Source: Ulota crispa (lineage: Eukaryota > Streptophyta > Bryopsida > Orthotrichales > Orthotrichaceae). From it: a stretch of DNA of 64,000 nt. The notes under the pieces are model-generated. The model was not told the DNA's origin. It was given only the letters and a program-made list of their open reading frames with translations, and did not search any database. The stretch covers positions 21,347,428-21,411,427 of the forward strand of contig OY987246.1 in assembly GCA_963920765.1 (NCBI GenBank), read 5' to 3'. Shown here in pieces: positions 6,252 to 28,819 of this stretch. A program made the position numbers and the translations under genes. How positions within the stretch are numbered: the first letter of the stretch is position 1; each line of letters starts with the position of its first letter.

Positions 6252-6844
6252 GGCCCGCTCTCAGAGCTCCCGCGCACTCAACCTCTGCCAAACCCTAGTC
6301 TCACACTATTTGGATGAAACCCTCGACCTTCTGTTCGACTTCAAGATATGCTCGCCTTGTCGTCCTTTGCCGTCGTCACTTGTTTGCTGGCATCGCCGAT
6401 CCTACTCGGCCGTCTGGAATTAAAGAAGGCTATTGCGTTGTGGAAAGAGAGTGGCCATGGCGGACTTAACTTGAGCGTTTTCGGTGAAAACTCTTCAGAA
6501 AACAACGTCAATTGCTGCGGGTGGACCTGATTTAGTGTGTGATTGCTTCTTAGTTCTGGTTGTCCGAAGAGCGACGCCTGAGCGCCAGGCTATGGCGTCC
6601 AGAATTGCGATTGCTCGTGGCGTGCAGGCATTGCCGATCCTCCTCTGAAGCTACTGTTATGGCCGTCTGGAACTAAAGAAGGCTGTTGTATTATGGAAAG
6701 AGATTAGCTATGGCGGACCTAACTTGAGCGTTTTCGGTGAAAACTCTTCAGAAAACAACGTCAATCGCTGCGACTGGATTTGATTTAGAGTGTGATTGCT
6801 TTTTAGTGCTGATTATCCAAAGAGCGACGTCCGAGCGCCACGCT
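6252..6844. promoter_or_regulatory. Divergent promoter region between SET/MYND and DDAH genes
   Basis: The start codons of the two genes face away from each other across 593 bases. Much of the spacer is a tandem duplication (6388-6627 and 6628 to about 6877), and the second copy runs into the true DDAH start. No clear TATA box was picked out; the assignment rests on gene geometry. Confidence 0.65.
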
Positions 6845-6877
6845 ATGGCGTCCAGAATCGCGATCGTTCGTGGCGTG
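6388..6877 (+). repeat. Tandem duplication of DDAH promoter plus first 11 codons
   Basis: Copy 1 (6388-6627) and copy 2 (6628-6877) share the order: CCGATCCT, CGTCTGGAA, AAAGAAGGCT, AACTTGAGCGTTTTCGGTGA, AACTCTTCAGAAAACAACGT, AGCGACG, then ATGGCGTCCAGAAT. Copy 2 continues into the real gene. Copy 1 breaks after GTGGCGTGC and joins the beginning of copy 2. Copy 1 therefore keeps an ATG (6592) and codons for MASRIAIARGV, then ends at TGA after 18 codons. Confidence 0.9.
6592..6648 (+). pseudogene. Truncated duplicate of the DDAH start (18-codon upstream ORF)
   Basis: The open frame reads MASRIAIARGVQALPILL and stops. The first 11 residues match the DDAH N-terminus except that Ala replaces Val at position 8. 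The last seven come from the junction with the next repeat unit. If transcription begins upstream of it, it would be an upstream ORF in the DDAH leader; otherwise it is a silent relic. Confidence 0.75.
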
Positions 6878-9044
6878 CCGGATTCCTTCTGCGACGCGCT
6901 GTCTCTAACGCCGCCTCCACAGCCTGTGAACCTCGACAGAGCGCGCTTGCAACATGCGGCATACGTGAACGTTCTCAAAGGTACCGTCATTAATATAGTT
7001 ACAAGCTGAAAGACGAAAATGCAATCCTGTAGACGAACTTTATAGAACTTTTGTTATACACATTTGTTGCAAATTGCTCAGAAACTGTGTTGCAGCTGCC
7101 ATGTAATGCGAATGTGATGCAAAATCTGCAAAAAACCTGTTGAAATGTTCATGGTAGTGGTGCCTGTGTTGGCAGGACTGGTGCAGGAGGTGATTCAGGT
7201 GCCTGCTGATAACAAGTATCCTGACTGCCCTTTCATTGAAGACACCGCGGTGGTGATAGGCAACCGGGCGTTGATCACGCATCCAGTAAGCCATTCATTC
7301 AAACATCCACGATCATAGACACTTAGCCCTTTCTCTTAACCCTTAAAGGACTGGCCCTGAACCCGTGGCTCAGTCCAGGAGAGTGTGCACTGTTCATGTG
7401 CAGCAAACAGCCTGTGGCATGTGTACAAGAGAGATAATATTCTCCTCAAAGAAGGAAAAATCAATAGTGTATCATGCCCTCACAAAAAGGGTAGCAGGGA
7501 CCTTGTACATCTCTTTACAAATTGGTGTTTTAAAAAATATGGAGGCATTGAAAACAGCTACTTTTTGCATTCAGTGATATGGCACATCTGTCTGACCACG
7601 TTCAAGAAAAAAAATTTGAAAAAAAAACATTTTTCCACCCTTGGGGTGTGTTTTCGGCACTGAAAGGATTTTCGTCCTCTTGGACGGTTAGGGGTTAAGC
7701 TTCTCTTATGCTTTTGTTATGCTTATGTTATATACTATAAACACCGAGGCTTCAACTCTTTTCGTTCTTGTGGTTTTTGTGAAAGGGAGCGGCTTCTCGA
7801 CAAGGGGAGGAGGTGGCCATTCGAGAGGCTTTGCAGCACTTAGGAATCCACATCTCCGAAGTGGAATCTCCTGGCGCTATAGATGGTGGTGACGTGTTGT
7901 ATGCTTCAGGCATGCTCTTTGCCGGCCAGAGCAGGTTTAAACAAAAATCCTCCTCTCATCTCAAGTCTTTGTAATTGTGTTTCAGCAATATTTTTGAGTA
8001 TTTCGTGTTTCTCGACATGTGAAGCTCAGTGCACTTGTTGTTGTTCCTCCGCTGAGTTTTCTGACGCTTTTTGAACCGAGATTCTCTACTAAACCTATCA
8101 CTCAAAAGCTCTTTGATGATGCGCTCAAGCTTTGATATGTCCGTGCAGCCGGACAAACGCAGCAGGAATTGAGGCTCTGCAAAAGGCATTTCCTGATGTG
8201 AAAGTGCACACCATCCCCGTTGCTGAGGGACTACATCTGAAATCAGGTAAAGTCCATCGTCTTCAATGCCAATGCATGTAAAAACATGAGTATTCTCAAA
8301 GTGCCTCTGCTGTATTTGTTTCGAGACTTTTTTGCTTCACACGAGTGTCCTGGACTCCTCGAGTTATGCTTTTCATAGCTGTATCATTTGTTGTGGTTTC
8401 CAGCTAACTTTGTTTGCTTCACACGAGTGTCCTGGATTTTTCGAGTTCTGCTTTTCATAGCTGTATCATTTGTTGTGGTTTCCAGCTAACTGTGGTTGCT
8501 TTACACGAGTATCTTGGAGCTTCAGCTACTCTTCAAGTTCTGCTGTTCATAGCTGTATCATTTGTTGTGGTTTCCAGCTAACTTTTTGTGCTTCACACAA
8601 GTGTCTTGGAGCTTCTACTCTTCGAATTCTGGCTTTATCATCTGCTATGGTTTGCAGCTAACTTATTTTGCTTCACACGAATGCCCTGGACTGTCCGAGT
8701 TCTGCTTTTCATAGCTGTATCATTTGTTGTGGTGTGCAGCGATGAGCATGATCGCTCCAGCAACGCTGGCTGTGGAAGACAGCGTGGCGGCAACGGCTAT
8801 GTTTGAGGAGATGCAACGGAAGAGCGGCGGTCACTTCAAGATGGTGAAGACGGGGGGAGCAGGAGCAGCCAACACAGTGCTGGTGGGCGAGACGGTGATC
8901 TGCTCCGCCACGCTGGGACTTGGAGCCGCCTTGCAAGCTCATTACCAGCAACATGCGGAGCATGTCGTTCCGGTGGACGTCTCCGAATTCCACAAGGTGG
9001 ATGGTGGCCTCACTTGCCTCTCTTTGCTCCTTGAAAAATGCTGA
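6845..9044 (+). CDS. DDAH: N(G),N(G)-dimethylarginine dimethylaminohydrolase (DDAH), 5 exons
   Basis: Exons 6845-6980, 7176-7285, 7786-7934, 8149-8246 and 8740-9044 join in frame to 265 residues; all introns are GT-AG. DDAH hydrolyses asymmetric methylarginines to citrulline and methylamine, in the guanidine-modifying (pentein) superfamily. Family landmarks: YPDCPFIEDTAVV (60-72), ALITHPGAASRQGEEV (77-92), IDGGDVL (114-120, substrate-binding Asp/Gly turn), SRTNAAG (132-138), VAEGLHLKS with the catalytic His (156-164, His161), and KVDGGLTCLS with the nucleophile Cys (Cys257). Order and length fit animal DDAH (about 285). Agmatine deiminase and arginine deiminase lack this SRTN/HLKS/TCLS combination. 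Intron 2 carries a TTAA-flanked element and intron 4 a five-copy repeat. Confidence 0.93.
7336..7698. mobile_element. TTAA-flanked element in DDAH intron 2 (piggyBac-like termini)
   Basis: Begins TTAACCCTTAAAGGAC and ends with the complement of TTAACCCCTAACCGTCC. It lies wholly within intron 2. A TTAA target with inverted ends starting CCC is the hallmark of piggyBac-type insertion. No transposase frame is present. Related elements lie at 9700, 28820, 30509, 31676 and 36292. Confidence 0.65.
8333..8739 (+). repeat. Five tandem copies of a 3' splice-site segment (DDAH intron 4)
   Basis: Units begin near 8333, 8411, 8493, 8588 and 8669, and are 70-95 bases long. Each reads GCTTCACACGAGTGTCCTGG, then CGAGTTCTGCTTTTCATAGC, then TGTATCATTTGTTGTGG and a terminal AG. 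In units 1-4 the end is TTTCCAG or TTTGCAG followed by CTAAC; in unit 5 it is TGTGCAG followed directly by exon 5. The functional acceptor is the last member of an array of near-identical acceptor-like sequences. Confidence 0.88.
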
Positions 9045-9084
9045 GTTTCTTCTTCTCCTTCTGTTTCTGAGGATTCAGCTTGTT

Positions 9085-9306
9085 TCTTCTGATACTCCTG
9101 CAGTCCAGCTCAGCATTTGTGGGGGTCTTGTATAAACTCGCTTTTTGTACTGGCATTGACTTGGAATGCTTTTGAGCTTTTGTAAGATAGCCATGGCCTT
9201 CTGATACTCCTGCAGTCCAGCTCAGCATACGTGGGGGTCTTGTCTAAACTCGCTTTTTGTACAGGCATTGATTTGGAATGCTTTCGAGCTTTTGCAAGAG
9301 AGCCAT
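9085..9306. repeat. Tandem duplication just after the DDAH stop codon, about 111-base unit
   Basis: Two units start TTCTGATACTCCTGCAGTCC at about 9088 and 9199 and both run through GGGGGTCTTGT, AAACTCGCTTTTTGTAC and GGAATGCTTT to AGCCATGG. The array lies within the expected DDAH 3' UTR, so transcripts would contain the repeat if polyadenylation is downstream. Confidence 0.85.
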
Positions 9307-9414
9307 GGTTTGTTGTCTCCGGTTTGCTTGATTTCGTTACCAAGTTTGAATCATCCCTCTAGTTCCATTACCATGCCTTGACAGCAAATCCGGAATTAAG
9401 GAATTTACGAAAGG

Positions 9415-9640
9415 AATTATTTCGATGGATACCCCTAATATTTACAATACTTGTATATATGCCCTTGGATTTTCAAAAGTTGCACAAATACCCTTGGACC
9501 ATAGTTTTCAGGCATTTGTTTTGTTGTGAAAGCCACTTCCTTCATGCTCGCAATGGGAAAAGGATGTGGCGTGCACAATAAACAAATGCTTGAAATTTAT
9601 GGTCCAAGATTATATTTGGAATTTTTATGGAAATCCTTTG
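9415..9640. mobile_element. GGATACCCCT-family foldback MITE, copy A (right end degraded)
   Basis: Left side carries GATGGATACCCCTAA and CACAAATACCCTTGGACCAT. The interior GGCATTTGTTTTGTTGTG is mirrored by CACAATAAACAAATGCTTG, and CTTGGACCATA by TATGGTCCAAG. The same layout occurs at 38185-38636 and 46480-46788. The outer right terminus is not clear here. Confidence 0.6.
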
Positions 9641-9699
9641 GCCTGAGAAGTGCCACATGGTATCACTTGATTGGCGATTGTTCAATAGCTGTGATGAGT

Positions 9700-9778
9700 T
9701 TAACCCGTAAATGCCTAAGGCACCGAACTTTGGTGTTCTACAGACCAAAACTTGGTGCCTCAGGCACTTAGGGGTTAA
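9700..9778. mobile_element. Mini TTAA-flanked palindromic element
   Basis: 79 bases bounded by TTAA on both sides: TTAACCCGTAAATGCCTAAG at the left and CAGGCACTTAGGGGTTAA at the right. The middle is also palindromic (CACCGAACTTTGGTG). It looks like a minimal member of the TTAA/CCC-terminated family. Confidence 0.6.
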
Positions 9779-10102
9779 TGTGGCATTTCAAGTTAAGAGG
9801 GAAGAGTGCCTAATATGGTGTTAAGATATGGTATCTAATGTAGTTTATTTTGTATTTTGGAAATGTTCGAGTGGAGATGATACACGTTATGGAGACACCA
9901 TATGTTTGTACACTAATGCATATTTTGTATAGAAACCATTAGTTCATGTATCCCTTCATTATAATTGTTCCATTGTAGTTGATTTGTGGACTTTCAAGCT
10001 ATATTCCTTTGTGTGTAGATTGTTTGTGGACACCACCAATATCATATTTTTTTGAGAGTTATCTAACCCTTGGATTCAATGAATTCAATGGGACTTGGTG
10101 AA

Positions 10103-10340
10103 GCCTACGCCAAATAGTGCATTTAGGTTGCCCCAGATTATATGTTGACCATGCTTGGATTTCACATGGTTTACAACTTGAACATTGTTAATTTACTTTT
10201 CGACAACTTTGTAGTGGTTGCAAGGCCCTTTTAAAAAAAAGAAATTGCAATAATTAGTAATGGAAATCATTTTTGCAGCAGTAGAAGAGGTAGATATGAG
10301 AATTAGTGTGGGGCAACCTGAATGCACTATTTGGTGTAGG
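10103..10340. mobile_element. MITE with GTGCATTTAGGTTGCC termini, copy 1
   Basis: The left end CTACGCCAAATAGTGCATTT plus AGGTTGCCCC is mirrored by the right end GGGGCAACCTGAATGCACTA plus TTTGGTGTAG. The interior lacks coding capacity. Two further members lie near 44070-44648 and 44646-44952. Confidence 0.72.
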
Positions 10341-10414
10341 AGATTAGATTTTGTAACATTTGAGGGTCAAATTTTATCTCTAAAAGCATAGGTGTTTACA
10401 TTTGAAATCACTTC

Positions 10415-10870
10415 TTGTCCACATCATGGACACTTGCATTGCTCAACAAAGGAGTAAGGATTGGCAAAAGACTAAGACAAGCGCCTAGCTACTTTGCCAC
10501 CTCTCGCTCACATTGCAACCACCCAATGGAGAGCGAGCAACACATATTCTATGATTGCCCTTTAGTGGCAAAGATCTGGTGGAGAGTCAACCAATTCGCA
10601 AGCAAAAGCAATAGACCCTAAACATCCACGTTTGAGGACATCCTTCTCTACCAATTTCAAGTATGCAACTCCAATCTTGAAGCCAAATACGTCTTTCATT
10701 ACAGACCTTGGGATTTATTTAGGTCTAGCCTTGTATGACAATTATGGACAGCCAGATGTGGCAAGCAATTTTCTTAGCAAACCCTAAGTGGCAAGCAAAT
10801 TTTCTTGGCATCCTAGACTAGCACCCTCCATGTTGGGGTTGCTATCTAGAGAACAAAAACAATAAAATAC
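10415..10870 (+). pseudogene. LINE retrotransposon 3' remnant (zf-RVT-like)
   Basis: The frame at 10415-10621 contains HCNHPMESEQHIFYDCPLVA followed by KIWWRVNQF. This fits the Cys/His/Cys zinc-finger segment that follows plant LINE reverse transcriptases (pattern C-x2-H, then E-x2-H-x2-F/Y-x-CP-x5-W). Downstream, a short stretch reads LWTARCGKQFS in another frame, as in the tail of such ORFs. Frames are broken by stops, so this is a decayed fragment. Retroelement identity is an inference from the motif alone. Confidence 0.6.
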
Positions 10871-12690
10871 AAGGACAAGATAGCCACCCTAGAAACCCTA
10901 TCCAATGGGGAATGGTCACTCCATTTTTGTTCATCAACAAGAGTATACCATTATACACTTCCACCACGTTTCACTAGTTTTGCATACTAATAAAACCGCC
11001 CATGGCAAGTCTACACGTGCAACCCCACCAAGCCCTAAAAGGCATTTAACATGGACATTTCCACTCTTAGGAGTTAAGCAACAAACAAGTTGGTTATGAA
11101 AATAAACAACATTTGCACTAGTTTTTTTATAGTAGATTTGCAAAGATACTTGGTATTTGAATGAATATTGATTAGAATGTATGAAATGTACTAACTCAAC
11201 ATTGTGATATGACACTTCTATGCTTGAAAAAACCTAAGTAATCTTCAGATGCTTCTAAGATTGTTTATAATATTGAATATAAAATTTCAATGCCATAACG
11301 AATCCCAAATTTGAATGGCAGTACAATTGTACAATGTCATAGATTGTTTCAAATGAATTATGCAAGATGAGTGGTATAAACAAAATTTGGCACAAAAAAT
11401 GATATTCAACCACTTGAGTAAAATCATTTTGAAATTATGAGGCAATCTCCAATATTCCACATGTGACAATTATGGAAAGAAATCCAACATGGATGTCATG
11501 ACCTTACAATTGAACATGCTATGTGTTTTGTCGTTAGAGGCATATCTTATACTGAAAGAGCAAGTTTTTATTTTGAAGATATCAAATGAACACATTTAAT
11601 TTTAAGACTTGATATAGCTATGAAAATTTAAAAACAACTATGTATCATAAAAATGACACTTTTGTAATCCTAAGCAAACTATATCAACTCTTTCTCTATC
11701 ATTCCTTGTTTCAGAGTACATACAATATTGATTCAATTACACCTCCTTATACGCGCTTATCTATTTAGCAATGACCTATGAAGCCTAATACCAAACTTGA
11801 CTCTTAAAAAAATTGTATAATGAGATTTGACAAAAGAAACTTCATTGTGTGACTGTGGATCAACAATTTATTGATGATTTGATATATAAAAATAGTGCAA
11901 ATTTAGTTGTACCTAGGTCCCTAGTACAAGGTTTTCAAAATTTGAAACATATATTCCTTTTGTAGGTAGATGTGATTAAAAATCTCCACTAAAATTACTA
12001 GGTCACCTTTGGACAATATACATAGATGAACAAAAGGGCAAAGTTCCTCATAATACTTTTTAAATTTTCAATGGAGTTCAAAATAGTAAGAAGTGTAAAA
12101 AGACACAAAAATAATATAAAACATAATCCAATTGCAAAATTCAAGCCAAATTTTTTCCTTCAACCCTCTCAATGAGGTCATAAAAAAGATCAATGATCAT
12201 CACCACCTTCCAAAGTGTAACTTGCACAAAAGAATCTAAAGACCCAGCAAACGATTATATACAAAGGATTCGCATTCAAACAGCATTTTTAGATTGTTCA
12301 TTTGAGGCTCTTCAATTTCTACCACAATTACTGGATTAGAATACGTTTGGGAGATTCTATAGATACGCCTTGAATCTTAGAATTAGAATGCTGAATGGAA
12401 AGAGTAGGACCCAAAGTTTCCAAATTTTACATGTAAAAGGGACCTTCCATAACTATTTAAACAAGTCATGCACTTTGTAACTAGTGAAGATGCATAATGA
12501 CAGGATGCAAGTTGGTTATTGGACATAAACTACTCCACTCAACTGTAAGACCAAACTCCCTAAAATTTCACATCCAACTGTTGGTTAATCTAAGGGCATA
12601 CAATGAGGAAAAGGACTACGAGTTATAATCCTTTTCTAATTAACCGATGAGGCATTGACACGGTTTCTTGGCATTATATTGTGAACGTCA
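10871..12690. other. AT-rich spacer downstream of the LdpA-like gene, no gene seen
   Basis: No open frame with recognisable protein features and no clear terminal repeats. The part next to 12690 must contain the 3' UTR of the LdpA-like gene. Confidence 0.5.
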
Positions 12691-15600
12691 TTACCTAGTA
12701 AGAGTTTGCTTGAAAGGTCTTACCAAGGCGGTTGCCTCCTGCAGAGCACCCAGCAACAGTGACGGATAGTGCTCTATACCTAGTGATGCTGAACCTGGCG
12801 CCGCAGAGTTCGTGAAATCCCACGTTTCATGGCACCTGTCCATCTTCTGAAGATACTTGGTCACAACCTGTTTGCAGATGCCAGCAACAAAATGTTAGCA
12901 ACAATCGTGTTAAAAGAACAGGCTAATTTGTACAATACTTCATGGTGCACTTTGGAAACCTTAACAGATCACTAACTTGATAAAAACACAGGTCCCTTCA
13001 GGGTTGATCTTATTGACCTTTGGTTTTACTAAATACAGTAGAGTCCATGTATGTTATATACGACTTTCTCAGCTTCAACATTAATTTAATATTAGGTAAA
13101 TTGGGAAAAATGGAGGGACAATTTTGCACTCCACCTTAATCTTACATACAGTAAATGTAGGCATAGCTATAGCTCAAAGTTGTAATTATCTAAAATTCTT
13201 GGAGGCAATCAATATAGTGCACGCTTGTTATGCCAACTTTTACATAATGGCAGAAACAGTGAAAGTCCCAGAATGCACTGTTTTTCCCAGTTTATCTAAT
13301 ATGGTGTTTAAACAGAACACCAACTGTGCATGGCAAATCATCTACACTAAAACCTTTTTATTAGGACCTTCCCTATATAGCATTCTAGAACATTTTACAC
13401 GCTTGCTGCACTATCGTTAACTGCAGCACGCTCATCACACATTCATACTATGTCACATGTCTCTTTACAAATGATACTGTAGAAAATATACCTTTCTAGC
13501 ATAACCACCGTAGGCCACTCCCGCAATGGTTGCACTGCTCTCGTGAGGGGTTAGGAAGAGCCCTTCTCTCTCCAAAGCATCAACAGTGTGGCTGTTCGTT
13601 CCTCCTGCCAGCTGAAGAAAACCTGAAAACAATTCTCTCGCATTTCATCAGACCTACAGCTCAAGCCAAAGATTGCATGCCTGTTTGTACGTATTCTACT
13701 CTCAGATGCAACTTTTCCTTGGAGCCGCTAAATACTGCATGAACGAAGAAAAATCTGACCTGGAGGACGATCTTCTGCAGCGGCAATACGCGCAGCAAGT
13801 GCAACTGCTGCCTTGGTTGCACCTGCACCGATATCCCCGCTCATCGGTCGACCATCCAACTGGACCACAATATTTATCACAACGTATGAACTTCTTGTGC
13901 AGTTTCAAAGAGGCTTTAGAGCACTATAAGTGACAGTAGACAACCTCATTTTCATTCAAACATCAAGGTCAATAAGCACTAGTTTCATTGAAGTTCAACC
14001 AAGTGTCTGAACAGGTGAGTTGTAACAAAGGTAAGTTTCATGAGATATATCAAGTCGATAATGGTTTTTGTATCTTCTAGCTTGGATTTTTCAAAACATG
14101 CAACATCGCGAAGAAGGAAATCACCTGCCAGAGATTGAGGCCTTTGAGATTGGGTCTCAGGCTTTCGTACATGGTAACCAATGCTGGAACCAAATGGTCG
14201 CCCAAATCTGGCACACTCACCTGCACACCTGGGTTACCAAAAAAACAAAAAAATTCGAAAAACAGAAAAAAAACCAGAAACGTAATCATATAGAATCAAG
14301 GCCATGTGGCAGTATAGATGAAAGGTCACGTTTTCTTCTAGGGTTAAAATGCAGGTTTTCAAAATGTTTGTTGGTATGTAGGAAACCTGGAAAACCACGT
14401 ATCTGGATAAACTTTCTGCACAACTATATGCGACGATCAAAACACATGCGATCCGGGAAACAATTTTGAAGCATGTTTCTGGTCTTGAAACACAATTGAC
14501 ACTCACGGAAATTTGAAAATGGATGGTTCACCACAAAGTCAAACCCACACTGAATACTTACAGCGATTAATTTGAGGGATTGCAACACGTCAGAGAGGTC
14601 TCCCACCACCCTATGGAAGGCTTCTAAGTGCCTGCAAAGCAATTGGAATTAACCCTGTGAACATTCACAAGCAATAATCACGCTTGAACTGACAGAGATT
14701 AACAGAAACAAAAGAATTTTCCCTGTTCATCCTACGTGAAGTTCAAACCCACCCCGTCTTTAATACACATATATTCTTTAGCTATTCTCATAAACTACAG
14801 AAATGTTCTTAGAACAGCAGAGAATATTTGGGACTATTCTTCAAAATTTTGACTAGGAGTATATAACATGTTCGACACCCGTCTAATCAAAACTATTTGA
14901 CATCAAACCTTCAAAACTACGTCAAGTAGACCTAGCTTGTCAACAATCCTGCCTGAACTTTATACAAAAAGAACATACCCTGCACCTGTGTGAATTTCAA
15001 TTGCGTCGATGTCATTACTCCTCAAAAGACTAGCGACAGCTTTCAACTCCCTCACATATGTCCTGGCATCTTCAAAGCATTGCAAGTACAGATTAGCTGG
15101 TGGTGAGGCCCGGCTACCATAGTAAGAATTTGAATCAGGAACATTCAAGGAGAAGTCCAAGTAAAGGTGCTCACGGATAAGGCCCAACGGGCATACGGGA
15201 ATGCAACGTCCACATCCATAGCAACGATCGGTGATGACCCCATCCTGTAGAAATGAATGGTAAGAAAAGTAAGCGAAACTGCAATATCATACAAAAAAGT
15301 ATAAACAAGGCTCGTGCAAACAACAACCAATTAGTATGTGTACCAAATGAAAGGCTGAACGATGACTTGAGTGTCCTGCACTCGCCAAAGAGTTTGACTT
15401 CAGCCTTTCTTCAGCTGTAGATGCATTGAAGGCAATCGCAGCAGCAGGGCATACACGCTCACACGGACGTGGACAATCAGTTGGACATAGCTCAGGATCA
15501 AACTCTGCATGGAATGCGTTGTACAACAAATAAAATTTTGCACTCCAGTTGCATGGTAAGGATAAAAAATCACCAACAATAAACAATATGAGCAGCAGTG

Positions 15601-17803
15601 TAAGTTATGTAAGTACCAGCACCAGAAGATGCCAGAAAAGGTTTCAATATGAATATTTCGTATCTCGTAATAATTCCTCCGGAAAGGATTTAATATTAAG
15701 TCATAAGTAAACATTTCATGACTAAATTTTGAAGCAGCTCACCAGCTTTTCTAAAGTGAGGATCCTCGTCATCATTTATGCTGACCATTATCCAAGGCCT
15801 TCCAATAGTGAACACTCCAGCAGAGTTGAGGTGACGAGAGAGATGTTGAGCGGCCGCCACGCCCTCCAAAACAGCAGCCACAACGGCAGAATCAGCGGCA
15901 CAATCAATGCAGTCAACTGCACATGCCAACGCTTTGCTGAAAATTCCAACACAATGACTGACGTATGCAAGCAAGATTCTATTGATCAATAAATTTGTGG
16001 ATTTGCTGTTCATAGCCATAACTTGAAAGTACCTGTAAGTGTCCAAGCTAAAGTCTGAAAGTCCACATTTGAAGCTAACAGTTGATTATAATAACTTCAA
16101 ACACATCTTTCTATTGTTTAGAAATGTAGGATATGATTTCTTCATGTAAATACACGAGTTTTGGCTTCCCAACATTTATATTTCAACTCCTATGGAAGAG
16201 GCCACCTTCGGTCATTTAGGCAAGGAGAAATGTGAATTTCATCAAATAAAGGTTGAGCTAAGAGCAGTCATGATGGCTAAAAGCGTCAAAACAGCCAGCC
16301 TGAATTCCTGAGCACAGTATGTTAACTATACGGAGATATTCAAGAGAAGCAGCATAGCTTTTAAAGGTGGTTTTAGCTGGACCATAGAGTATGGTGAACG
16401 TGAAATGAGGAAACTGTGAAACTATTCATAACTTGAAAACCGGAAGACCTACCTCCGGCCAACGTATACACAAGAGAAAGATTACGTATGTCCACCACAT
16501 CCTGCATAGAACACCTCCAACAAAGACCTCATAAATTGTAACCCCATACAAAAAACATTTAATGTTGAATCTTTTCGTTACTAAAAACTCTTGCATTCCA
16601 CCTCTTATGACAACTGCTACGAAGAGAGATAAGAGAGAATAGTTACTAAGAAGTACTAACCTCGAAGCTTGCTCCACAAATAAGTTTCACCCATCTCCCT
16701 TCCCGCAAAGACACTTCTGGAGCTCTATTACCACTTGACATAGCCGATTCACGAACGAGGTCGGACAAAGCTCCATTTACATAGACCCTATCCTGCTCAA
16801 CTGCGAAACATATACTAGAATTGAAGTTTTTTCCAGCTGTCTTACCACCTGAAGGATACACGGTTTGAAAAACAATCAATTAAACCGAAAACATTTGTGA
16901 AACAAATAAAAAATCAGATGGAACAAAATTTTATATCACCAGAATCAGTAAAGAACATTGCACGTGTTTGTCACTATATCATTTAAAACTGTGTTAAAGA
17001 GAGTTCTAATGTGACCTAATCAAAAACTGCGAAAAAGAATAAGGTTTAATAGGGACCGGTGTTCAGCAGCTCCAAGTGACATTCAAGGACGTTATCCTTA
17101 CCAGTCTAAACTTCAAAATCGCGCCCTGACAAACAGTATTCTCTACATTAAACCGTGATTCTCTCGGCAATTCAAATTCAGATTCACGGTTCTGATTTTG
17201 TATACTGCAAATGCAGTCCTGAATGCGAGCACCTCGAGAACACGAACGCGATTCTTACATTCACAGGGAATTTTGCAGCAAAGTTTTGCAAATCGACGGC
17301 ATCAAACAGAAAGATACAGACGAAGGAATGAATAGAGGGACCGGTGTGCAGCAGCTCCAAGTGACATTCAAGGACATTATCCTTACCAGTCTAAAATTCA
17401 GAATCGCGCACTAGCAAAACCATTCTCTGTCATACATAAAACTATGATCCTCTCGGCAATTCAAATTTAGACTCACAATTCTGCTCTTACATACTGCAAA
17501 TGCATTCCTAAATGCGAGCACCTCGAGAACATGAACGCGATTCTTACATTCACAGGAAATTTTGCAGCAAAGTTTTGCAAAAAGACGGCATCAAAGAGAC
17601 GAAGGAATGAATAGAAAACCTGAATCCCGTTGAAGTACGTCTTGCGCGCTCAGAATCGCGACATTTTGATACCGCTCCATCCTTGACGCTCGAATTCGAC
17701 CGCTCGCAAACTTGCAATAGTCTTTACAGAATAATAAACTCGGCAAGCGCACTCCAGCAGCCGAATTCGTGCGAGAAAAGCATACGCCGCATTTAAGAGC
17801 CAT
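12691..17803 (-). CDS. LdpA-like iron-sulfur protein, probably plastid-targeted, 11 exons
   Basis: Exons 17620-17803, 16661-16848, 16453-16501, 15743-15916, 15344-15504, 14979-15244, 14562-14631, 14125-14220, 13760-13859, 13492-13622 and 12691-12867 join without a stop to 531 residues; all introns are GT-AG and all phases agree. It resembles cyanobacterial LdpA, a redox-responsive iron-sulfur protein that adjusts the circadian clock period to light. After an N-terminus rich in Ser/Arg (1-60, likely transit peptide) come EGRWVKLICGASFEDVVDIRNLSLVYTLAG-VDCIDCAAD (about residues 110-149), Cys-x3-Cys-x3-Cys-x3-Cys (205-217), Cys-x2-Cys-x2-Cys-x3-Cys (260-270), a TIM-barrel-like part with HTGAGHLEAF (336-345) and LDGRPMSGDIGAG (397-409), QLAGGTNSHTV, and GIEHYPSLLLGALQEATALV near the end. 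The two Cys clusters should bind 4Fe-4S centres. Function in plants is inferred. Confidence 0.88.
17055..17613. repeat. Tandem duplication of about 280 bases in intron 1 of the LdpA-like gene
   Basis: Copy 1 (about 17055-17336) and copy 2 (about 17337-17613) share CAGCAGCTCCAAGTGACATT, CTTACCAGTCTAAA, GCGAGCACCTCGAGAACA, ATTTTGCAGCAAAGTTTTGC and GACGAAGGAATGAATAG. Copy 2 ends just inside the intron, within a few bases of the exon 1 donor at 17619/17620. Confidence 0.88.
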
Positions 17804-17999
17804 GGCCGCATGCGTTTTCGAAGCAGCGCAACTCCAATTTCGGCAGAACCTAAACGCAATTAAAGCTTAGCACACTTGCAGCATTCCAGCAGCCGAAGTC
17901 GTGCAAGAAAATCCGGCGCCGCATTTGAGAGCCAGGGCCGCATGCGTTTTCGAAGCAGCGCAACTCCAATTTCGGCAGAACCTGAACGCAACTAAAGCT

Positions 18000-18068
18000 T
18001 TAGCACACTCGCAGCACTCTAGCAGCCGAATTTGTGCGAGAAAAGCCGGCGCCGCATTTGAGAGCCAT
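18000..18068 (-). pseudogene. Duplicate of the LdpA-like gene start (22-codon upstream ORF)
   Basis: The frame reads MALKCGAGFSRTNSAARVLR-VC, then TAA. The real protein starts MALKCGVCFSRTNSAAG. The stop lies at the unit boundary. It is upstream of the gene on the same strand. Confidence 0.75.
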
Positions 18069-18131
18069 GGCCGCATGTGTTTCGAAGCAGCGCAACTCCA
18101 ATTTCGGCAGAACCTGAACGCAACTAAAAGC

Positions 18132-18200
18132 TTAGCACACTCGCAGCATTCCAGCAGCCGAATTCGTGCGAGAAAAGCCGGAGCCGCATTTGAGAGCCAT
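18132..18200 (-). pseudogene. Second duplicate of the LdpA-like gene start (22-codon upstream ORF)
   Basis: The frame reads MALKCGSGFSRTNSAAGMLR-VC, then TAA, in the most distal repeat unit. It has the same length and end point as the copy at 18000-18068, so the short ORF has been kept open in both units. Confidence 0.72.
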
Positions 18201-18331
18201 AGCCATTTCGAAGCAGTGCAACTCCGATTTCGGCAGACCTGGAACACACAAAAGCTTCAGAACACTCGAAGACTCGCAGACTCGAAGGATGCGAAGGCTG
18301 CAGTTACTTTATCTTTTAGCATCGTCAGATT

Positions 18332-18435
18332 TCGAGTGAACGTTCAGGTGGCGTCATTGCGAACGCCTGGGAACTTTGCAGGAACGTGTGAACGTCCAGG
18401 TGGCGTCATTGCGAATGCTTGGGAACTTGAAAAGG
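18332..18435. repeat. Tandem duplication of about 50 bases in the divergent spacer
   Basis: The phrase AACGTTCAGGTGGCGTCATT plus GCGAACGCCTGGGAACTT is followed directly by GAACGTCCAGGTGGCGTCAT plus TGCGAATGCTTGGGAACTT. Confidence 0.8.
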
Positions 18436-18649
18436 AACGCGGACAGTTATGTCTTCCTCCCGCCCTCTCTCGTCCTCTCCTTTCCCTTTCAAACCGAATG
18501 CCGGCGGCAAATTCAAACTGAAAGCCTCTTCGATTTGAATTGCTCTTGCTTTTTGGCGGCTGTAACTCATCAAGCCTGGATAGCTCTTTGCGTACTTCAC
18601 CCGTTTAACTTGAGCTCGTCGATTGTGTTCTTCATTTTTTTTAAACAAC

Positions 18650-19270
18650 GTGATTGTACAGCAGCGTCCTCTTTGTCTAAATTTTTTATTCAAAATTTTG
18701 TTCCAGGATTGCGTCCTGGCAGGATGTCGATGCACTTGTACAGTAGCGTCCTCTTTGTCTAATCTTTTTTGCGAAATTTTGTTCCGGGATTGCGTCCTTG
18801 GCAGGATGTCGATGCAGTATGTTTTGACTTACGTTGTTGTCATTCTTTGCTGTACACTTGTCTCCTACTTTGTGATGAAGAGAGCAAACCGAAGTCGCAC
18901 AAACAATCCACTCCCAGTGTGATGATGGATAACGTTATTTAAAATTTGATGTTCGTGCTTTCGAGCCTTCTTCGTACAAACAATCCACTCCCAGTGTGAT
19001 GGATAACGTTTTATCTAACAATTGATATTCGTGCTTTTTTAGCAACGTGATTGATTGTACAGTAGCGTCCTCTTTGTCTAAATTTTTCTTTTCGAATTTT
19101 TTTGTTTGAAGTTTTTTTCAAGGATGTCGATGCAGTGTGTTGAGTTGTTTTCATTCTTTCCTGTACACTTGTCTCGTACTTTGTGATGAAAAGAGCAAAC
19201 CGAAGTCGCACAACCAATCCACTCCCTGTGTGATGGATAACTTTATCTAACAATTTGATATTTCGTGCTT
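18650..19270. repeat. Three-unit array upstream of the RSPH1-like gene
   Basis: Each unit begins TTGTACAG(C/T)AGCGTCCTCT followed by TTGTCTAA, and includes GGATGTCGATGCA. The first unit (about 18650-18738) is short. The second (about 18739-19010) and third (about 19046-19270) continue through TGTACACTTGTCTC, GTACTTTGTGATGAA, AGAGCAAACCGAAGTCGCAC and AATCCACTCCC. An extra copy of the AATCCACTCCCAGTGTGATG phrase follows the second unit. Confidence 0.85.
18806..18922 (+). CDS. Possible small membrane-type ORF (38 codons) in the repeat array
   Basis: An ATG opens a 38-residue frame with a hydrophobic stretch (YVLTYVVVILCCTLVSYFV) followed by a basic tail (KRANRSR). In the neighbouring repeat unit (ATG at about 19123) the same start is followed by a short deletion and the frame ends after 20 codons. 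It is either an upstream ORF of the RSPH1-like transcript, a tiny gene, or chance. I have no evidence of translation. Confidence 0.2.
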   Translation: MSMQYVLTYVVVILCCTLVSYFVMKRANRSRTNNPLPV

Positions 19271-19398
19271 TCAAGCGTTCTTCGAATTGGTGACGATGTG
19301 AAGGTTTACTATCACGCATACCACTGGCGACCTGCTGACTCGCCTGCTGAAGAAGAGAACATAAAAGATCTCAGGGTTGGAGTGGACGATATTCCAAA

Positions 19399-22300
19399 AT
19401 GTCGAGTGAAGAGGACGAGGAAGACGAAGAGGGAGAGAAGGGAGACAAGGTACATTCAATGTCATTCCTAGCTCTGTACAAATTCAATATGACTATATCG
19501 TTTTTGAGGAAAGCTTTCACTATCTTGAGCTCGTCTGCTTTTTTCAAGGAAGAATTGCGGTATCTAGGATGCTTCAGTTCTCTGACATCTTCTTTCTTTG
19601 ATGCAATTCTGCTTAAATTTTAGTTCACGAACTAGAGAGTGTGAAGCGTTTCACATCAGGTTCCTTCAATTCCTGTGAATGGCACTCTAACTCTTGAAGG
19701 ACGACGGCCAGAGAGCTTTAAAGGGCTAATAGTAGCTACTTGATGGATAATTGTGAGCAAGCAAAAGGATGAGAAGTGTGCACAATTTTAAGCCCTGCTG
19801 CTTGAATCCAAAATTTTGTGTTGTTTTTATGTCATTCGATGAAAAATAAGATCGGAGCATTCAATTCTTGTGAATGGCACTCTAACTCTTCAAGAATTAC
19901 GGTCAGTGAGAGCTTTAAAGGGTTAATAGTTGCTCCTTGATGGATAATTGTGATTAAGCAAAAGCATGAGGAGTGTGCACAATTTTAAGCCATTAATGCC
20001 GCTTGAATCCAAATTGTTTTATGTTAATTTTATGTGTCATTAGATGGACAATAAGGTGGGAGCATTATAGAACAATCTAAGAATGTTACGGACTGCCATA
20101 CGGTTCTTTCTCTCAGACAAAATCCGTTGCAGCAACTGTGGACAACATAAGCAAGAGCGAGGTATTCAAAAACTTGTAACTACAAGTTTCTGGTGCGCTT
20201 GTTTGCAATTTCAGGGATTCACATGGAGTGGAACCACTGAGTCGGATGAACCGATAGGGCCAGGCATTGCCGGGTATCCCAATGGCGATACATATGAAGG
20301 CTCCTACTTCAGCGGCAAGCGAAACAGTCTTGGGAAATACACATTTACTAAGAGTGGCGCAATATATGAAGGGAATTACACCAACAATCAAAAGGCTGGA
20401 TTTGGCACCATGAGCTACCCTGACAAAAGCATCTACATAGGTTTTCTTCATCTTCGCAATTTTTCATTTCTAAAGAAACTGCTAGTTATGACTTAACATT
20501 CTGATGAATTCAGGTCCTCATAGCTCAGGCCATCTGTCATCTCTAGAAGAAACCTGTGTTCTTTTGACGGATTTTTTTGGATGTCCACTTGTTTTTATGT
20601 TACAATTGATGTTAAAGCTAACATCTTGATGTCATGTTTGATGTCATTGTTAACATAAAAACCACTGAACGTCAAAAATAATCTATAAAAATAAACACGA
20701 GTTTCTCCTTGGATGCATCCCAGGAAGAATCAAAGTGTTTAAGATTGAGTGATTCTTTGACACTTGCTTTCTTTGCGAACGTGTTTGAGAACAGAATTTG
20801 AAAGTGAAATTTTCTAGCTCATGCAATGCAACGTTATAATAAATCTGGAATTCATATTACATACTCCCTCTGTCCCTCTAAAGACCTCCAAAAAGCTTCC
20901 TTGCGAAGGATTAACTGTGTTTTTTAGTCTTTGTGCTAGTAACACATGCATTTTGGAAACAATATACTCCCTCCGTCCCAAAATGATCTTCTTGTTACAC
21001 AAAATGTTATACATTAAGCTCAAAAAGAACTATTTTTCAAAAAAATTGACCTATGAATAGAGTTTGATATCCTCCTATTGTTCTGAAATTTTGAGTTTCA
21101 AATTAGTTTTCAAAATGTGATTTCAAAATGCTTGAAAATTGAATTTTTGAGGCATTTTTGAAGAACACCAGTGGCCACTCACTTGATGGCATGGGATTGG
21201 TTAGTATGCCCATGCTTTTGGACTACGTGCAAGTGTCATTAACTCCCTTCCTCCTCCAACAAGAAGATCATTTTTGGACACTAAATAAAGTTCAACAGGA
21301 AGATCATTTTGGGACAAAGGGAGTACCATCTACCAAATGTATGCAAAATCTCCAACCTTGATGTTGCTGTTTGGGCATCCAAATTCTATGCAAAATGTAC
21401 CGTATTTGTGCATGTTGCTAGCTCCTCATTATTGATGATTTAAAGATTAGTAGCAAACAATGGTACCTCATATGGGCAAGGTCAAGCTTGCTAGGAGAGG
21501 AATGCTCTCTAATTGCTTGATTTGCCCCCATGAGATCATTGAACATGGCAGATGCTTTCTTAACATTTGAAATTAGCAAAAGGGAGCTTTTTAGTGGTAC
21601 AAGAAATGTGTTTGATTTGGAGCTTTTTAGAAGGACAGAGAGAGTAGTTTTTTTGTTGTTAAAACTGCCATGTGGTTATAAAGTTGCTCAGTCTTGGGGT
21701 CACATGATTACTGACATCACTGATCCTCACATTATTTTTGTGACCTGTTTGTCTTTAGTGCTACAGTAGCAAGGTTACAAGCCCAACACCATTTAAGGAT
21801 ATTCTAGTTCATTGTAGTAGCATGGAGGTCTAATTAGGTCATCTTTATTAAATCTTGACCTCCTTTCAAGAGTTTTTTAGTACCTTCTCATTGATGTAAA
21901 CAATAGTGCTTTATCATGTGAGGTTGTACAGGAGCATGGTATCAAGATTCGAGGAGCGGAGAAGGGCAGTACACATATGCAAACGGCGACATCTACAAGG
22001 GACAGTGGTCTGAGAATAAGAAACATGGTGTCGGCACTTATTTCTTCAAGAATTCCATGGCTCACGTAAGTCACCTTAAGAAAAAAACTTACAACTAGGT
22101 AGGTACTGCATTGATATCCACAGGAAAAGCTCATCCATGGCTGCTGTCTTGCATGCACATTAAAATGAGCTGCAAGCCTGCAACAGTACGAGATTCCACC
22201 GTGGCCGGTAGTTAGGTTTGTTACATTGCTGAGAATCATGTGATTATGTTCCTTAAGGTACAGCGGTTGGCCAGCAACGTCCGTTGTTCTGTATGTAGAA

Positions 22301-23398: not shown

Positions 23399-23777
23399 AC
23401 GTGTGAGTGATAGTAGTGGTCCTCAACCCCGGTATTGTTTTCACTGCCGTACTGTGAGAGGGTGATATTTTGTGATTGCACATCAAAGTAGGTATTTTGA
23501 TGTTGTAATCTTTGCAATGAGACAGCCTGGTACTGAACTTTTACTAGAGATGGCGTAGAGAAGCAGCAGGATGTCCATCCGAGGGAGTTGCTGGGAGAGA
23601 AGGACATCTCTCTTTTGTTGTCTCAAGCCACATGTCCATGACTGTGTGGGAGATGTTTACGTCAAGCAACTGTGCATTCAGGAGTGATGTTTTGGACGTT
23701 GCATAGGCGTCTCATTTTTTTGGAAACGCTGGAGATGTTGATGGCGTTGTCATACGTTTTATAACTGGAGTTCTTTT

Positions 23778-25755
23778 TGAATTGTTGCTGGGTAGGTAAT
23801 ATTGCACATCCGTGTTTGTGGGCCTTCGGTTGAAAAGCTATGATTTTTCACTTGGCAGAAAACATTAGACAGTTGGAAAACTTTACTAGTAGAAAATTGA
23901 ATTTGTTAATTTTGAATTTAATTTTGGATTCACAAACTTTGGGTATTTTGAGTTCATGTTTGGATTCAGAGATTATGGTCTAGAAAGAGACAAAATTGAG
24001 CAACTCCAAAATAGGAGTAGATTTTTACTTTTTATCCTTTGTGTAAATAAAATCTGAGCTTTTCCATCATGGGCTCACAAATAAGTATGTAGTACACCAA
24101 GTCAATGTAATTGTTCCAATTTAATGGATCATCCATGTGCAAAGAGGCTAAGTAATAGAATCACTTCACACTATGGTCAAAGGTCAAGAAGCAATAAATT
24201 TTTAATAGTCAAATTGCAAGAAACTAAGATTAATTTTGGTCTATTTACCCTTTACACCATAAGCCAAAGTCTAAATTCTATCATCCTCCAAACTATCTAC
24301 ATGGTATCATTTTTTCATCCAAAACAACACCATCTCAAAAGAAGTTTGCGTTGAGCAACAATGGAAATTTAAACTATGGTTAAGAGATTGTCAAAAAAAT
24401 TCCATAAAATAATCATATATTAACAAGATTTAGGCCGATAGATTAGAAGGCTTGGTTTTTGGACTAGGCCTTTCATTCCACATATGTTCAAGTCAAAAAG
24501 TTGTGGAAGTTCATTGCCAAGAGGTTGGCTTTTGGACTTGGCGTTTGAAGGCTTCACAATATGGCCGGCCAAAGGTTGTAATCACAATACTTTATGGTCT
24601 ATCTTAAGCCCATTTTGTTGATCTCTCAACAAAATTTGACCACTCAATCTCACATTAGCATAAAGCAGCCGTAAGTGCCCTTGGCTTTGACGATCAAACG
24701 TCACATCTAGGATGGTTTTTCAATATTCATTTAAAGACTTTTGATGTTCAAGAGTTAATTCCTATGCTAAATCACCTTGGTTCTTGATAATTGGACTTCT
24801 TTTTTGAACTATTGTTGGGTAGGTATATTGCACATCCGTGTTTGTGGGCCTTTAGTTGAAAAGCTATGATTTTTCACTTGACATAAAGATTAGAAAATTA
24901 GAAATTTTACTAGCAGAAATTGAATTTTGGAATTTTGAATTCATATTTGGATTCAGAGTTTGGTTTAGTCATGAGCTACAAAAAGAGATAAAATTGAGAA
25001 ACTCCAAAATAGAAGTAGATTTTTACCTTTTTATCCTTTTCGTAAATAAAATCTGAGCTTTTCCATCCTGGGCTCACAAACAAAAATATACAGTGCACCA
25101 AGCCACTATAAGTGTTCCAATTTCAATGGATCATCCATGTGCAAAGAGGCTAGTAGGGACACTTCAAACTACGGCCAAAAGTCAAGAGATAGTTAATTTT
25201 CACCAATCAAATTGCAAGAAACCAAGATTTTGACTTCTCAACTCTTCACATTAGAGGCCAAAGTTCACCTACATGGCAGTAGTTCTTCATCCAAAAAAAC
25301 ATCCTCTCAAAAGCAGTTTGTGTTGAGCAGAACTAGAGACCCAAATTTATGGTCAAGAGATTATCAAAAAAAATCCATAAAATAATCATAAAATAATAAG
25401 ATCTCAGCCAATAGATTAGAAGGTTTGGTTTTTGGGCTCAACCTTTTTGCACCATGTATGTTCAAGTCAAAAAGTTGTGGAAGTTTATTGTCAAGAGTTT
25501 TGCTTTTGGACTTGGCGTTTGAAGGCTTCACAATACGGCCGGCCAAAGGTTGTAATCACAATACTTTATGGTCTATTTTGAGCCCGTTTTGTTGACCTCT
25601 CAACAAAGTTTGGCCACAAAATCCCACAACAACGTAAAGCAGCCGTAAGTGCCTTTGGCTTTGACCCTCAAACGTTATTTCTAGGATGGTTTTTCAATAA
25701 TTATTTAAAGACTTTTGATGTTCAAGAGTTAATTCCTATGCTATATCACCTAGTT
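23778..25755. repeat. Tandem duplication of about 1 kb
   Basis: Copy 1 (about 23778-24790) and copy 2 (about 24809-25755) share the ordered phrases GCACATCCGTGTTTGTGGGC, AAAGCTATGATTTTTCACTT, AAATCTGAGCTTTTCCATC, GGATCATCCATGTGCAAAGA, CAAGTCAAAAAGTTGTGGAA, CACAATA(T/C)GGCCGGCCAAAG and TTAATTCCTATGCTA. There is no long open frame. Part of the same unit occurs inverted at about 45430-45980, so the unit is a mobile or dispersed repeat. Confidence 0.85.
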
Positions 25756-28137
25756 TCTAAATTTTATGATGGATTCCTATTGTAAAATTAGCTCAAAGTT
25801 TTAAGAAAAAAATTCAACAACTCTCCCTACGTTAAATCAAGACCATTTGGATCTTGGAAATTTATGGACAATAAATTTGCTCTTAAGAGAATGGAGTTGT
25901 TGGTGAGATATTTTTTGTTAGTGAGATATTATTTGAGAGCCCAAGAGGCTCAAGAAGGATATAGAACATGATGTCAAGTTGTCTAGTGTAGCTAAATTTC
26001 AAATGTCCCAATCTAAACTTTTGGTTGGTCAAAGATCCACGTTGAGGAAAAAGGTTATTAATTACAACCTTTGTCTAACTTGCTAGTGAAAGAGCCAATG
26101 AAAGAATAACGTAATTTTCTCAAAATGTAGATGTAAAGTTTGGACTCAAGACCTTATTCTTTTCCAACCAAAGAACTCCTAGATGTGGACATGAAATTGA
26201 CAAGAGATATTTTGACAATGTTCTTCAAGTAAATTTGTTTGTGCAAAAGAGATGAAGTGATGTTGACCTTTCAAAGTCATAAGGATATGTCAAACCATTA
26301 TCATCTTAGAATGTCTAAATGTACTTTGCCATATTTGATATGAGTTTTGTCATTGGATGAGTTTGTGTGATGAGAATAAAGGCTCCAACAAATAGAATAT
26401 ACACTAATTGTGTTAGTACTTGATGTTTTTGTGAGGAACTAATCAAGTGAACATTTGGGTATTTATAAAAATTGTTACAAATTGTAGTAATGCACATCAA
26501 ATAATTTGTTAGAACTTGCAACTTTTGGAATACAAGACATGTTCACAATTGATTTTGTAAGTTTCTTTTACCCTTGCAGAGGCTCATAGTTTCCGTATGG
26601 CAAAGAAATATGCTAGTTAAAAAATCCAGCATCCCAATAAAGCCCATTAACTCCTAAGAATGAAAATATAATTTAGGTGAATTATGAATGATTTCAAATG
26701 TTTTCTTGTAAAAGTTGTAAGAAACAAACAAAGTACACCCAAGTATGCTCTGAAGGCTATACTTGTCTACCTTTCAATCAGTAATCTAGTTTAGTCATTG
26801 GATGCTTCATGGTGTTTGTGTAAGTCTTTGAAGATGGAAAAAAAAAAAAACCTTGAGAAAAATGAAGATCTTCTAAAATCTTCTAAGGATGTAATTTGGT
26901 TTTTGCTTCCTAAGCTCCACATCTACATGCTTTGTCCACAACACTCTTCAACCATCTCCACTTGTATTAAAAACCTACAAGTTGAAGAGGCTTTTGGATG
27001 AAAAAGAAACAACTAATGTGTGAACCTATCAAAATATTCTCCTTATCATGGTAAAAATTGCAATTTTTCATGCACAACAACTCCTCTAAAAACACTACTT
27101 TTTTTTTTACAAAAGCAAGTTGAATAATCAATGATGAAGAACATATTTGCTTTTGTAAAAAAGGAGATTTGCCAATGGTTGATTGTTAATTTACCAAATT
27201 GAACAGGTGGGAAAAAAAAGTGGTCAATATGAGAAACAAGAAACATTATGTTTCCCACCAAGTGTTTGGAGAGATTTTGAGCTTCCTTGACAAAAATCCT
27301 ACAATTCTTCTTTTCAACTCATTTTTATTAGCAATTCAGGCATTCATCATTATAATTTTATTAAGATTTTCATATGTTAGATAGTATACAAAATACAAAT
27401 TTCAATAGGTCTTCAAATTGTATTTATGTGATAATATCACAAAGAGTGTACATGTGATGTTACATAGATCAATACATGATATTACAAAAACCAATGTGAT
27501 TGTATCTATAATATCACAAAGATAGGGATGTGATATGACAGAAGTCACTGTGATTCTAGTAATATGATTTAAAATATCACAAAGATAGGGATGTGATATT
27601 ACAGAAGTCACTGTGATTCTAGTAGTATGATTTAAAAGCTTTCCAAAACCTGGTCATTTTTTATCTGATTGATTAAAATTTCTACCAAGTTTTTAAAAGG
27701 AAAAGGAAGAGGAAGAATGTTGAGAACACCACCGCATGCCTCCCCCAAAGCCCTCTGCCAGAATCTCAATGAAACTTACAGTCACTCCATGATTGCCTGG
27801 CTGGGACTGGGTAAAGACACAGGCAAATAATGGGTCTTTGTCCTTAGCTATTTCTGGGGTACGTGTCACTCATCTACTAAGCCGAAATCTGTGGCTTACA
27901 CCATCTGACCGAGTCTGGCCTGCCCTGGGCAGAATAAGAGGACCAGACAATAAAAAATAAATAAATAAAATCCCTACGTAGTTGCAACAAAATTTAATAT
28001 GAGGTAGCAGCACCCATAACCATCAAACTAAGGGTTTTGAACATGACGATTATTAATAAACATTTAGCAAGTTATAGAAACTTATTAGCAAGAGAAGAAT
28101 GCTCAGTTTGCACATTTGAATGAATTATTTGGATACA
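25756..28137. other. AT-rich repeat spacer, no gene seen
   Basis: No convincing coding sequence. The stretch 27690-27965 is richer in GC and ends in an AATAAATAAATAAAAT run, which could be a SINE-like or processed insertion. I could not find an RNA polymerase III promoter pair in it. Confidence 0.45.
27425..27640. repeat. Short tandem repeat, about 64-base unit
   Basis: The phrase ATATCACAAAGATAGGGATG plus TGATAT(G/T)ACAGAAGTCAC plus TGTGATTCTAGTA occurs twice in tandem (from about 27510), preceded by degenerate copies. A single similar phrase appears near 41695. Confidence 0.78.
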
Positions 28138-28553
28138 CATTTATTGAAGAAGTTAAAAATGAATTTTTGGAAAAAGGTCCAGATTGGGTAGCCCAAAAAA
28201 TTCTCAAAAATTGTATTGAAATAAATAAAAATATAGAATACGTTCTTTATATTTATGTATAGGTAGGGAGTTTTGAATCATTCAATTTTCATTGCTGAGA
28301 TGAAAGCTATGAAAAGTTTTTGCTTGCTGGTGGGTGTGATTTTGAGAGAAAACATACCTACCCACAAACAAAAACTTCTCCTGACTTTCATCTCATCAAT
28401 GAAAATTGAATGATTCAAAGCTCCCTACCTATACATAAGTGTAAAGAATGTATTTCATATTTTTATTTATTTTAATGCAATTTTTAAGAAATTTTTGGGC
28501 TGCCCAATCTAGATCTTTTTCCAAAAAATCATTTTTAACTTCTTCAATAAATG
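28138..28553. repeat. Long hairpin (inverted repeat with about 190-base arms)
   Basis: The left arm starts CATTTATTGAAGAAGTTAAA and the right arm ends with its complement. Inner segments such as GGTAGGGAGTTTTGAATCAT and GAATGATTCAAAGCTCCCTA also pair. The short spacer is near 28340. It has no coding capacity. Part of the arm recurs at about 31960-32010 inside a TTAA-flanked element. Confidence 0.85.
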
Positions 28554-28819
28554 TTAGAATGAAGAAAAAATTAGACACCCACGTAGATTTTTGAATTCCC
28601 CATCATCCATAAAAGTTTCAAAAAATCACACAAAGTAGTTTAGCCATAGGTACATGCCCAAAATCCCATTTATCCCTTGAGGAGACCGTTGGTCTTTTAA
28701 ACCTTCTAGAATCTTCAAAGATTGACCTCCTAGACTTTGGTAATGCCTAGTCTTTTTGAATCCATAACACATGGGAGGTTGTTGCCAATAAATATGAAGT
28801 AAACTCTAATCAATTCAAT

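Follow-up and report, generated by a model that had tools for sequence, protein, structure and literature searches.

Short tandem duplications at and away from gene starts in a 64-kb window of the Ulota crispa genome

We analysed a stretch of 64,000 nucleotides from Ulota crispa (contig OY987246.1, forward strand, positions 21,347,428 to 21,411,427), hereafter called the window, which belongs to contig C5 of a plant genome of 275 Mb. An earlier note on this DNA had described three neighbouring genes, i.e. a DDAH-like, an LdpA-like and an RSPH1-like gene, as having tandemly duplicated 5′ ends, and had proposed a local habit of duplication focused on gene starts. Such duplications are also present elsewhere in the genome, their copies have diverged, and the downstream start codons are intact. 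They are probably ordinary short tandem duplications (~50-1000 bp) that were generated by error-prone end-joining repair and retained where they were harmless. On the scale examined here, the data do not demonstrate a focus on gene starts.

Results

Tandem duplications in the window

Duplications were detected with Tandem Repeats Finder and by comparing the window with itself (self-BLAST). Self-BLAST identified 11 tandem-duplication loci, and no comparable locus was present in any of five simulated windows (Markov-1), so that a chance origin is excluded and the duplications are genuine. At the loci of the window, the copies are adjacent and arranged head to tail. Ten of the 11 loci have best periods of 68-319 bp, and the remaining one has a period of 1026 bp. 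The duplications cover 9.6% of the window bases, and one 2-kb locus represents a third of that. The stretch 17051-20066 is exceptionally dense in duplications. The positions of individual features are summarized in Table 1. The names LdpA, MORN, SET and MPP6 have Pfam support; the names DDAH and RSPH1 are putative and based on sequence motifs.

Table 1. Tandem duplications and associated gene features. Positions refer to the window, except for the last line, which refers to the sampled stretch L027. ORF, open reading frame; uORF, upstream ORF; UTR, untranslated region; K2P, Kimura two-parameter distance.
Feature	Position	Strand	Remarks
DDAH-like tandem pair	6385..6881	+	units ~6385-6628 and ~6623-6881; repeat finding, self-alignment
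Upstream copy of DDAH start	6592..6648	+	18-codon uORF; translation
DDAH-like exon 1	6845..6980	+	start ATG 6845, MASRIAIVRGVPDSF...; translation
Array of 5 x ~82 bp	8326..8740		read as DDAH intron, away from start
Tandem pair, period 112	9086..9308		3′ part of DDAH region
LdpA Fe-S domain exons	within 14963-15286 and 15290-15604	-	Pfam PF25160
LdpA-like intron 1 tandem pair	17051..17615		period 285, K2P 0.110
LdpA-like exon 1	17620..17803	-	translation; phase compatible with exon 2 ending at 16849
LdpA-like tandem array	17749..18275	-	four units of ~132 bp
Tandem pair, period 52	18333..18428		LdpA/RSPH1 divergent promoter
RSPH1/MORN-like promoter/5′UTR, nested tandem copies	18654..19284	+	periods 82, ~319, 76
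RSPH1/MORN-like exon 1	19399..19449	+	MSSEEDEEDEEGEKGDK; read as true start
RSPH1-like intron 1 tandem pair	19665..20065		period 195, K2P 0.129
Tandem pair, period 1026	23758..25758		both copies hold part of a dispersed repeat
Tandem pair, period 139	38293..38559		~100 bp upstream of F-box-like ORF (ATG 38655)
MPP6-like duplication	L027 274-427 + 426-579		spans ATG 567; K2P 0.098; Pfam PF10175

Duplications at the starts of individual genes

The two DDAH-like units run from the 5′ flank through the start codon to the 12th codon, and they are 87.8% identical over 221 aligned bases (K2P 0.136). The uORF formed by the upstream copy echoes the N-terminus of the DDAH-like protein (MASRIAIARGV...), and the exon that follows exon 1 contains the motif PDCPFIEDTAVV. 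The duplication is situated in a divergent promoter shared with a minus-strand SET-domain gene, which was identified with Pfam and the start of which (ATG 6251) was read by eye.

The LdpA-like gene owes its name to the LdpA Fe-S domain. Its start codon, ATG 17803, lies inside unit 1 of the array, the unit nearest to the gene; exon ends and phase were read by eye. The pairwise K2P values between the units are 0.064-0.121. The units 18014-18145 and 18146-18275 retain the ATG and yield uORFs of 22-24 codons, and the unit 17881-18013 has a CTG in its place. A plus-strand "coding" score at 17889-18509, over the GC-rich array, was taken to be an artefact: the codon score is crude and also missed six of eight known exons.

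For the RSPH1/MORN-like gene, the single repeated unit adjoining the start codon that had been described turned out to be a nested set of copies, with a period of 82 at 18654, of ~319 (18736-18974 and 19055-19284) and of 76 at 18895. These repeats stop 115 bp upstream of ATG 19399, which is the best start of this gene and is followed by MORN repeats (PF02493) downstream of exon 1. The duplicated unit thus includes the start codon in the DDAH-like and LdpA-like genes and excludes it in the RSPH1-like gene, i.e. two of the three proposed cases span a start. The other details reported for this region were reproduced. A repeat of ~50 bases at 18332 in the divergent promoter corresponds to the pair 18333-18376 and 18385-18428 (44 aligned bases, 91%), and the promoter-proximal introns, i.e. 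intron 1 of the LdpA-like and of the RSPH1-like gene, are both duplicated.

Copy A of the RSPH1-like leader contains an ORF of 38 codons (18806-18922) with a hydrophobic stretch. Copy B retains 92 nt of it at 93%, with a shifted frame. One piece of the leader has a match of 119 bp and 76% on contig C6 (L002, minus strand), and this relative keeps an open frame in this region. The frame shift in copy B opposes a meaning of the ORF as a protein, and the open frame on C6 leaves doubt.

Duplications in the rest of the genome

For comparison, we analysed 24 stretches of 10 kb that were taken at round positions irrespective of their content, 20 on contigs C1-C5 and four on C6-C7. These 240 kb contain 16 duplication loci, covering 2.15% of the bases. 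Coding segments were predicted with a codon-score gene finder (threshold 14; the null maximum was 10.9 per 10 kb in 18 simulated stretches). As judged with this insensitive finder, 12 of the 16 loci are more than 300 bp away from every predicted coding segment, one of them (in L025) falling within the span of a gene, and one of the 16 touches a recognised start. In L019, a duplication at 9404-9989 is separated by 59 bp from a segment with a weak coding score and no Met, which was not counted as a start.

The locus that touches a start belongs to the MPP6-like gene in L027, and the duplicated unit again includes the ATG. The upstream copy yields a uORF of eight codons, and the copies are identical over their last ~56 bases, including the ATG. 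An in-frame downstream ATG is kept in all three start-spanning cases, i.e. DDAH, LdpA and MPP6.

Are gene starts enriched?

To estimate the frequency of duplications at gene starts outside the window, we used 12 starts, which were assigned by visual inspection of open frames, not from transcripts. They are located in L003, L006, L015, L025, L027, L029 (RbcS) and the DnaJ-family stretches L037, L038, L041, L042, L043 and L044. The DnaJ stretches had been picked by match score alone, the ten best less two near-identical twins giving eight of 68. One of the 12 starts has a duplication within 300 bp, versus 0.74 expected from the density in the sample, and with n = 12 this result is compatible with a several-fold enrichment. 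None of the six DnaJ-family starts has a duplication; each of these stretches is 710 bp long, of which 261-652 bp precede the start, and units of more than ~300 bp may therefore be missed, which is a bias against enrichment.

Several stretches were not included. L039 and L040 were judged to be internal exons (L040 with upstream Mets), and L030 is a second RbcS copy on the other strand; none of the three has a duplication. The RuBisCO small subunit of this genome is most similar to land-plant chains of the chloroplast type. L031-L036 are GST matches in which the start could not be placed, and one of these six (L033) has a duplication at 353-555. The same exclusion applied to other predicted genes in the 24 sampled stretches and the two window flanks, in which the start codon could not be placed.

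In the window, six of the 11 loci are within 300 bp of five placed starts, one of which, the F-box-like ORF, is an uncertain gene with a Pfam match below the cut-off. The other five loci (4030, 8326, 9086, 23758 and 63463) are further away, and the examples that had led to the idea of a start focus were chosen too narrowly; further starts near 63463 and in other stretches of the window may exist but could not be placed.

A number of results weigh against the view that the duplications are ordinary and are tolerated wherever they are harmless. Random placement in mostly non-coding parts of the window would give 0.55 loci within 300 bp of the starts, compared to the six of 11 found (p = 0.0004), a value that is post hoc because the starts were sought at the repeats. 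The density of 11 loci in the 64-kb window exceeds that of 16 loci in the 240-kb sample (p = 0.016), and four loci start within 2.6 kb (p = 0.003 with the sample rate, 0.058 with the window's own rate); all p-values for the window versus the sample are post hoc because the window was chosen for its pattern. In the three start-spanning cases, the duplicated units all terminate 13-55 nt beyond the ATG, and this may exceed coincidence. The gene finder recovered only two of eight known exons of the window, so that the count of 12 of 16 sampled loci far from coding segments exaggerates the distance from genes, and short unseen first exons may be near. In addition, a divergence of ~10% between copies makes the overlaps at the junctions, described below, soft evidence, and units of more than ~300 bp exceed the nick spacings known to have been used experimentally.

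These numbers bear on the possibility that promoters are true hot spots, i.e. that open, transcribed, divergent promoters are nicked or broken more frequently (by topoisomerase or at R-loops) and then repaired by ordinary end joining. We regard this as possible, but clearly less probable than repair with tolerance. The association of the window loci with starts speaks for it, as do the start-spanning MPP6-like case in an unselected stretch and the finding that, in land plants, tandem repeats with units of 1-50 bp reach their highest density in 5′UTRs, followed by the 200 nt upstream (PMC3887541). Arguing against it, the starts outside the window have about the number of duplications expected, neither 10-kb flank of the window, each with a predicted coding segment, holds a duplication locus, and the published enrichment concerns shorter units.

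The starts in the window differ from those elsewhere: four of four (in two promoters) are near a duplication, versus one of 12 (Fisher test, p = 0.003; p = 0.033 when promoters are counted once), a test from which the F-box-like ORF, which would make it five of five, was omitted. Our reading is that the cluster in the window is local, real and moderately rare, and that such scars are common in the genome as a whole. The proposed clustering is upheld as a local one; a focus on starts is not demonstrated. The best account of the cluster is that it is due partly to the presence of two divergent promoters, and partly to a chance run that was picked by the reader of the sequence.

Age and junctions of the duplications

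The K2P values between copies at the loci of the named genes are ~0.06-0.14, indicating that the duplications are old. The values range from 0 to 0.166 across the pairs in the window and reach 0.296 in the sample, in which two values were void, as overlapping alignments had been compared with themselves. This wide spread suggests that the events are separate in time.

The junctions were checked for seven pairs. In five of them the copies overlap by 1-6 bp (6 bp at DDAH and 1 bp at the four others), and in the other two 43 or 80 bp lie between the copies, the 80 bp containing another copy of the repeat. The end of the window cuts into the pair at 63463. The MPP6-like pair overlaps by 2 bp. Small overlaps together with events spread over time fit an end-joining model for plants (PMC7407515, PMC5730883, PMC8355091).

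Other features of the window

Three further features were noted. The first unit of the pair at 38293-38559 has complementary ends, resembling a small inverted-repeat element. A large inverted repeat at 28137-28554, with arms of 206 nt that are 88% complementary and 6 nt apart, looks like a palindromic element. The minus strand at 52087-62355 harbours an SMG1-like kinase gene (PF15785, PI3/PI4 kinase domain); SMG1 is a factor of nonsense-mediated decay.

Discussion

The most probable sequence of events would begin with a staggered break, or with two close nicks on opposite strands, that is filled in and end-joined, whereby the stretch between the nicks would be copied head to tail. Such duplications would arise singly and over a long time, and unequal exchange or slippage between the copies could subsequently raise their number, as may have happened in the LdpA array (4 x 132 bp) and the DDAH intron (5 x 82 bp). 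Schiml, Fauser and Puchta are said to have described, in 2016, short tandem duplications that result from paired nicks or patch-mediated breaks. Duplications made in this way would be expected to depend on Ku/NHEJ or on CST-Pol alpha. Since copies are tolerated in promoters, 5′ leaders, introns and spacers, these are the places where they would be observed. A copy that spans a start would be tolerated because the last copy remains joined to the coding sequence and the protein is unchanged; the event would add merely a short uORF or a second copy of the promoter. Survival of start-spanning events, rather than targeting, can thus account for their being seen.

Break repair, one of the causes proposed earlier, is plausible and matches a published plant mechanism, which is not specific for starts. 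In rice, duplications of 10-1000 bp that are wholly or partly tandem have been attributed to asymmetric nicks followed by end joining (Vaughn and Bennetzen 2014, via PMC7407515), and breaks made with Cas9 nickase produce tandem duplications in different species, including A. thaliana (PMC8355091; PMC5730883). The short tandem duplications that this literature, including Schimmel et al. 2021 (PMC8355091), ascribes to paired nicks or patch-mediated breaks resemble those found here in being head to tail, in having units of ~10-1000 bp with apparently little or no overlap at the junctions, and in occurring in a plant genome. In contrast, the loci of U. crispa are old (~10% diverged), two arrays have reached 4-5 copies, and several loci are in two divergent promoters. 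Fold-back or hairpin formation, which had also been proposed, was rejected: inverted repeats of at least 12 bp are absent from 6350-6900 and are represented in 17700-19400 by only six short pairs (12-18 nt, 75-92%).

It is very improbable that the units are pieces of mobile elements or tandem insertions. The 1-kb pair at 23758-25758 would be compatible with such an origin, as ~490 bp of each copy belong to a dispersed repeat with at least 56 matches (40 of 1726 candidates scored), and so would the relative of the RSPH1-like leader piece on C6. However, the DDAH stretch, the LdpA array, the stretch of LdpA intron 1 and the MPP6 stretch each have a single place in a genome search, in which the lack of a further match does not prove rarity, and no notable inverted repeats were found in 6350-6900 and 17700-19400. 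For these four units, an origin from mobile elements was therefore rejected.

Selection for the repeats, with doubled promoter elements or new uORFs tuning expression, also appears very improbable. The retention of the upstream ATG in the first DDAH copy, the first MPP6 copy and two of the three upstream LdpA units is in its favour, as is the identity of the MPP6 copies at their ends. Conversely, one LdpA unit has lost its ATG, and the 38-codon ORF of the RSPH1-like leader is frame-shifted in copy B.

A bias of tandem repeats towards plant gene starts has already been published for shorter units. The survey of 29 land plants (Zhao et al. 2013, PMC3887541), in which UTR annotation was missing for four of the species, likewise places tandem repeats near plant gene starts and includes bryophytes, but its units are 1-50 bp with arrays from 12 nt, compared to units of 52-319 bp here. 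In rice, structural variants have been described with long variants in promoters and short ones in 5′UTRs, similar to the present case, but they were ascribed mainly to transposons and simple repeats, and few tandem duplications were called (PMC6499320). A paper on a barley uORF (PMC4584011) treats a different matter, i.e. a base change and duplication of a whole gene. Among the open-licence papers listed in literature searches, none treated start-spanning duplications as a class in its title or in the opening of its abstract.

A more specific proposal would be that, in U. crispa, a segment beginning near the transcription start and closing a few codons after the ATG tends to be duplicated as one unit, with a frequency above that of other DNA. 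The unit ends would perhaps be set by breaks, or by RNA:DNA hybrids, in the first exon. The DDAH-like, LdpA-like and MPP6-like genes fit this proposal, the last one having come from an unselected stretch, but we consider it unlikely. If it were true, genes that carry a second start codon upstream, together with a short uORF echoing the N-terminus, would form a recurring class.

The duplications described here exemplify how short tandem duplications shape the non-coding DNA next to plant genes, and how even a copy that spans the start can spare the gene. If starts were favoured, tandem duplication would continually supply self-mimicking uORFs and doubled promoters, and thereby a simple route to new translational control.

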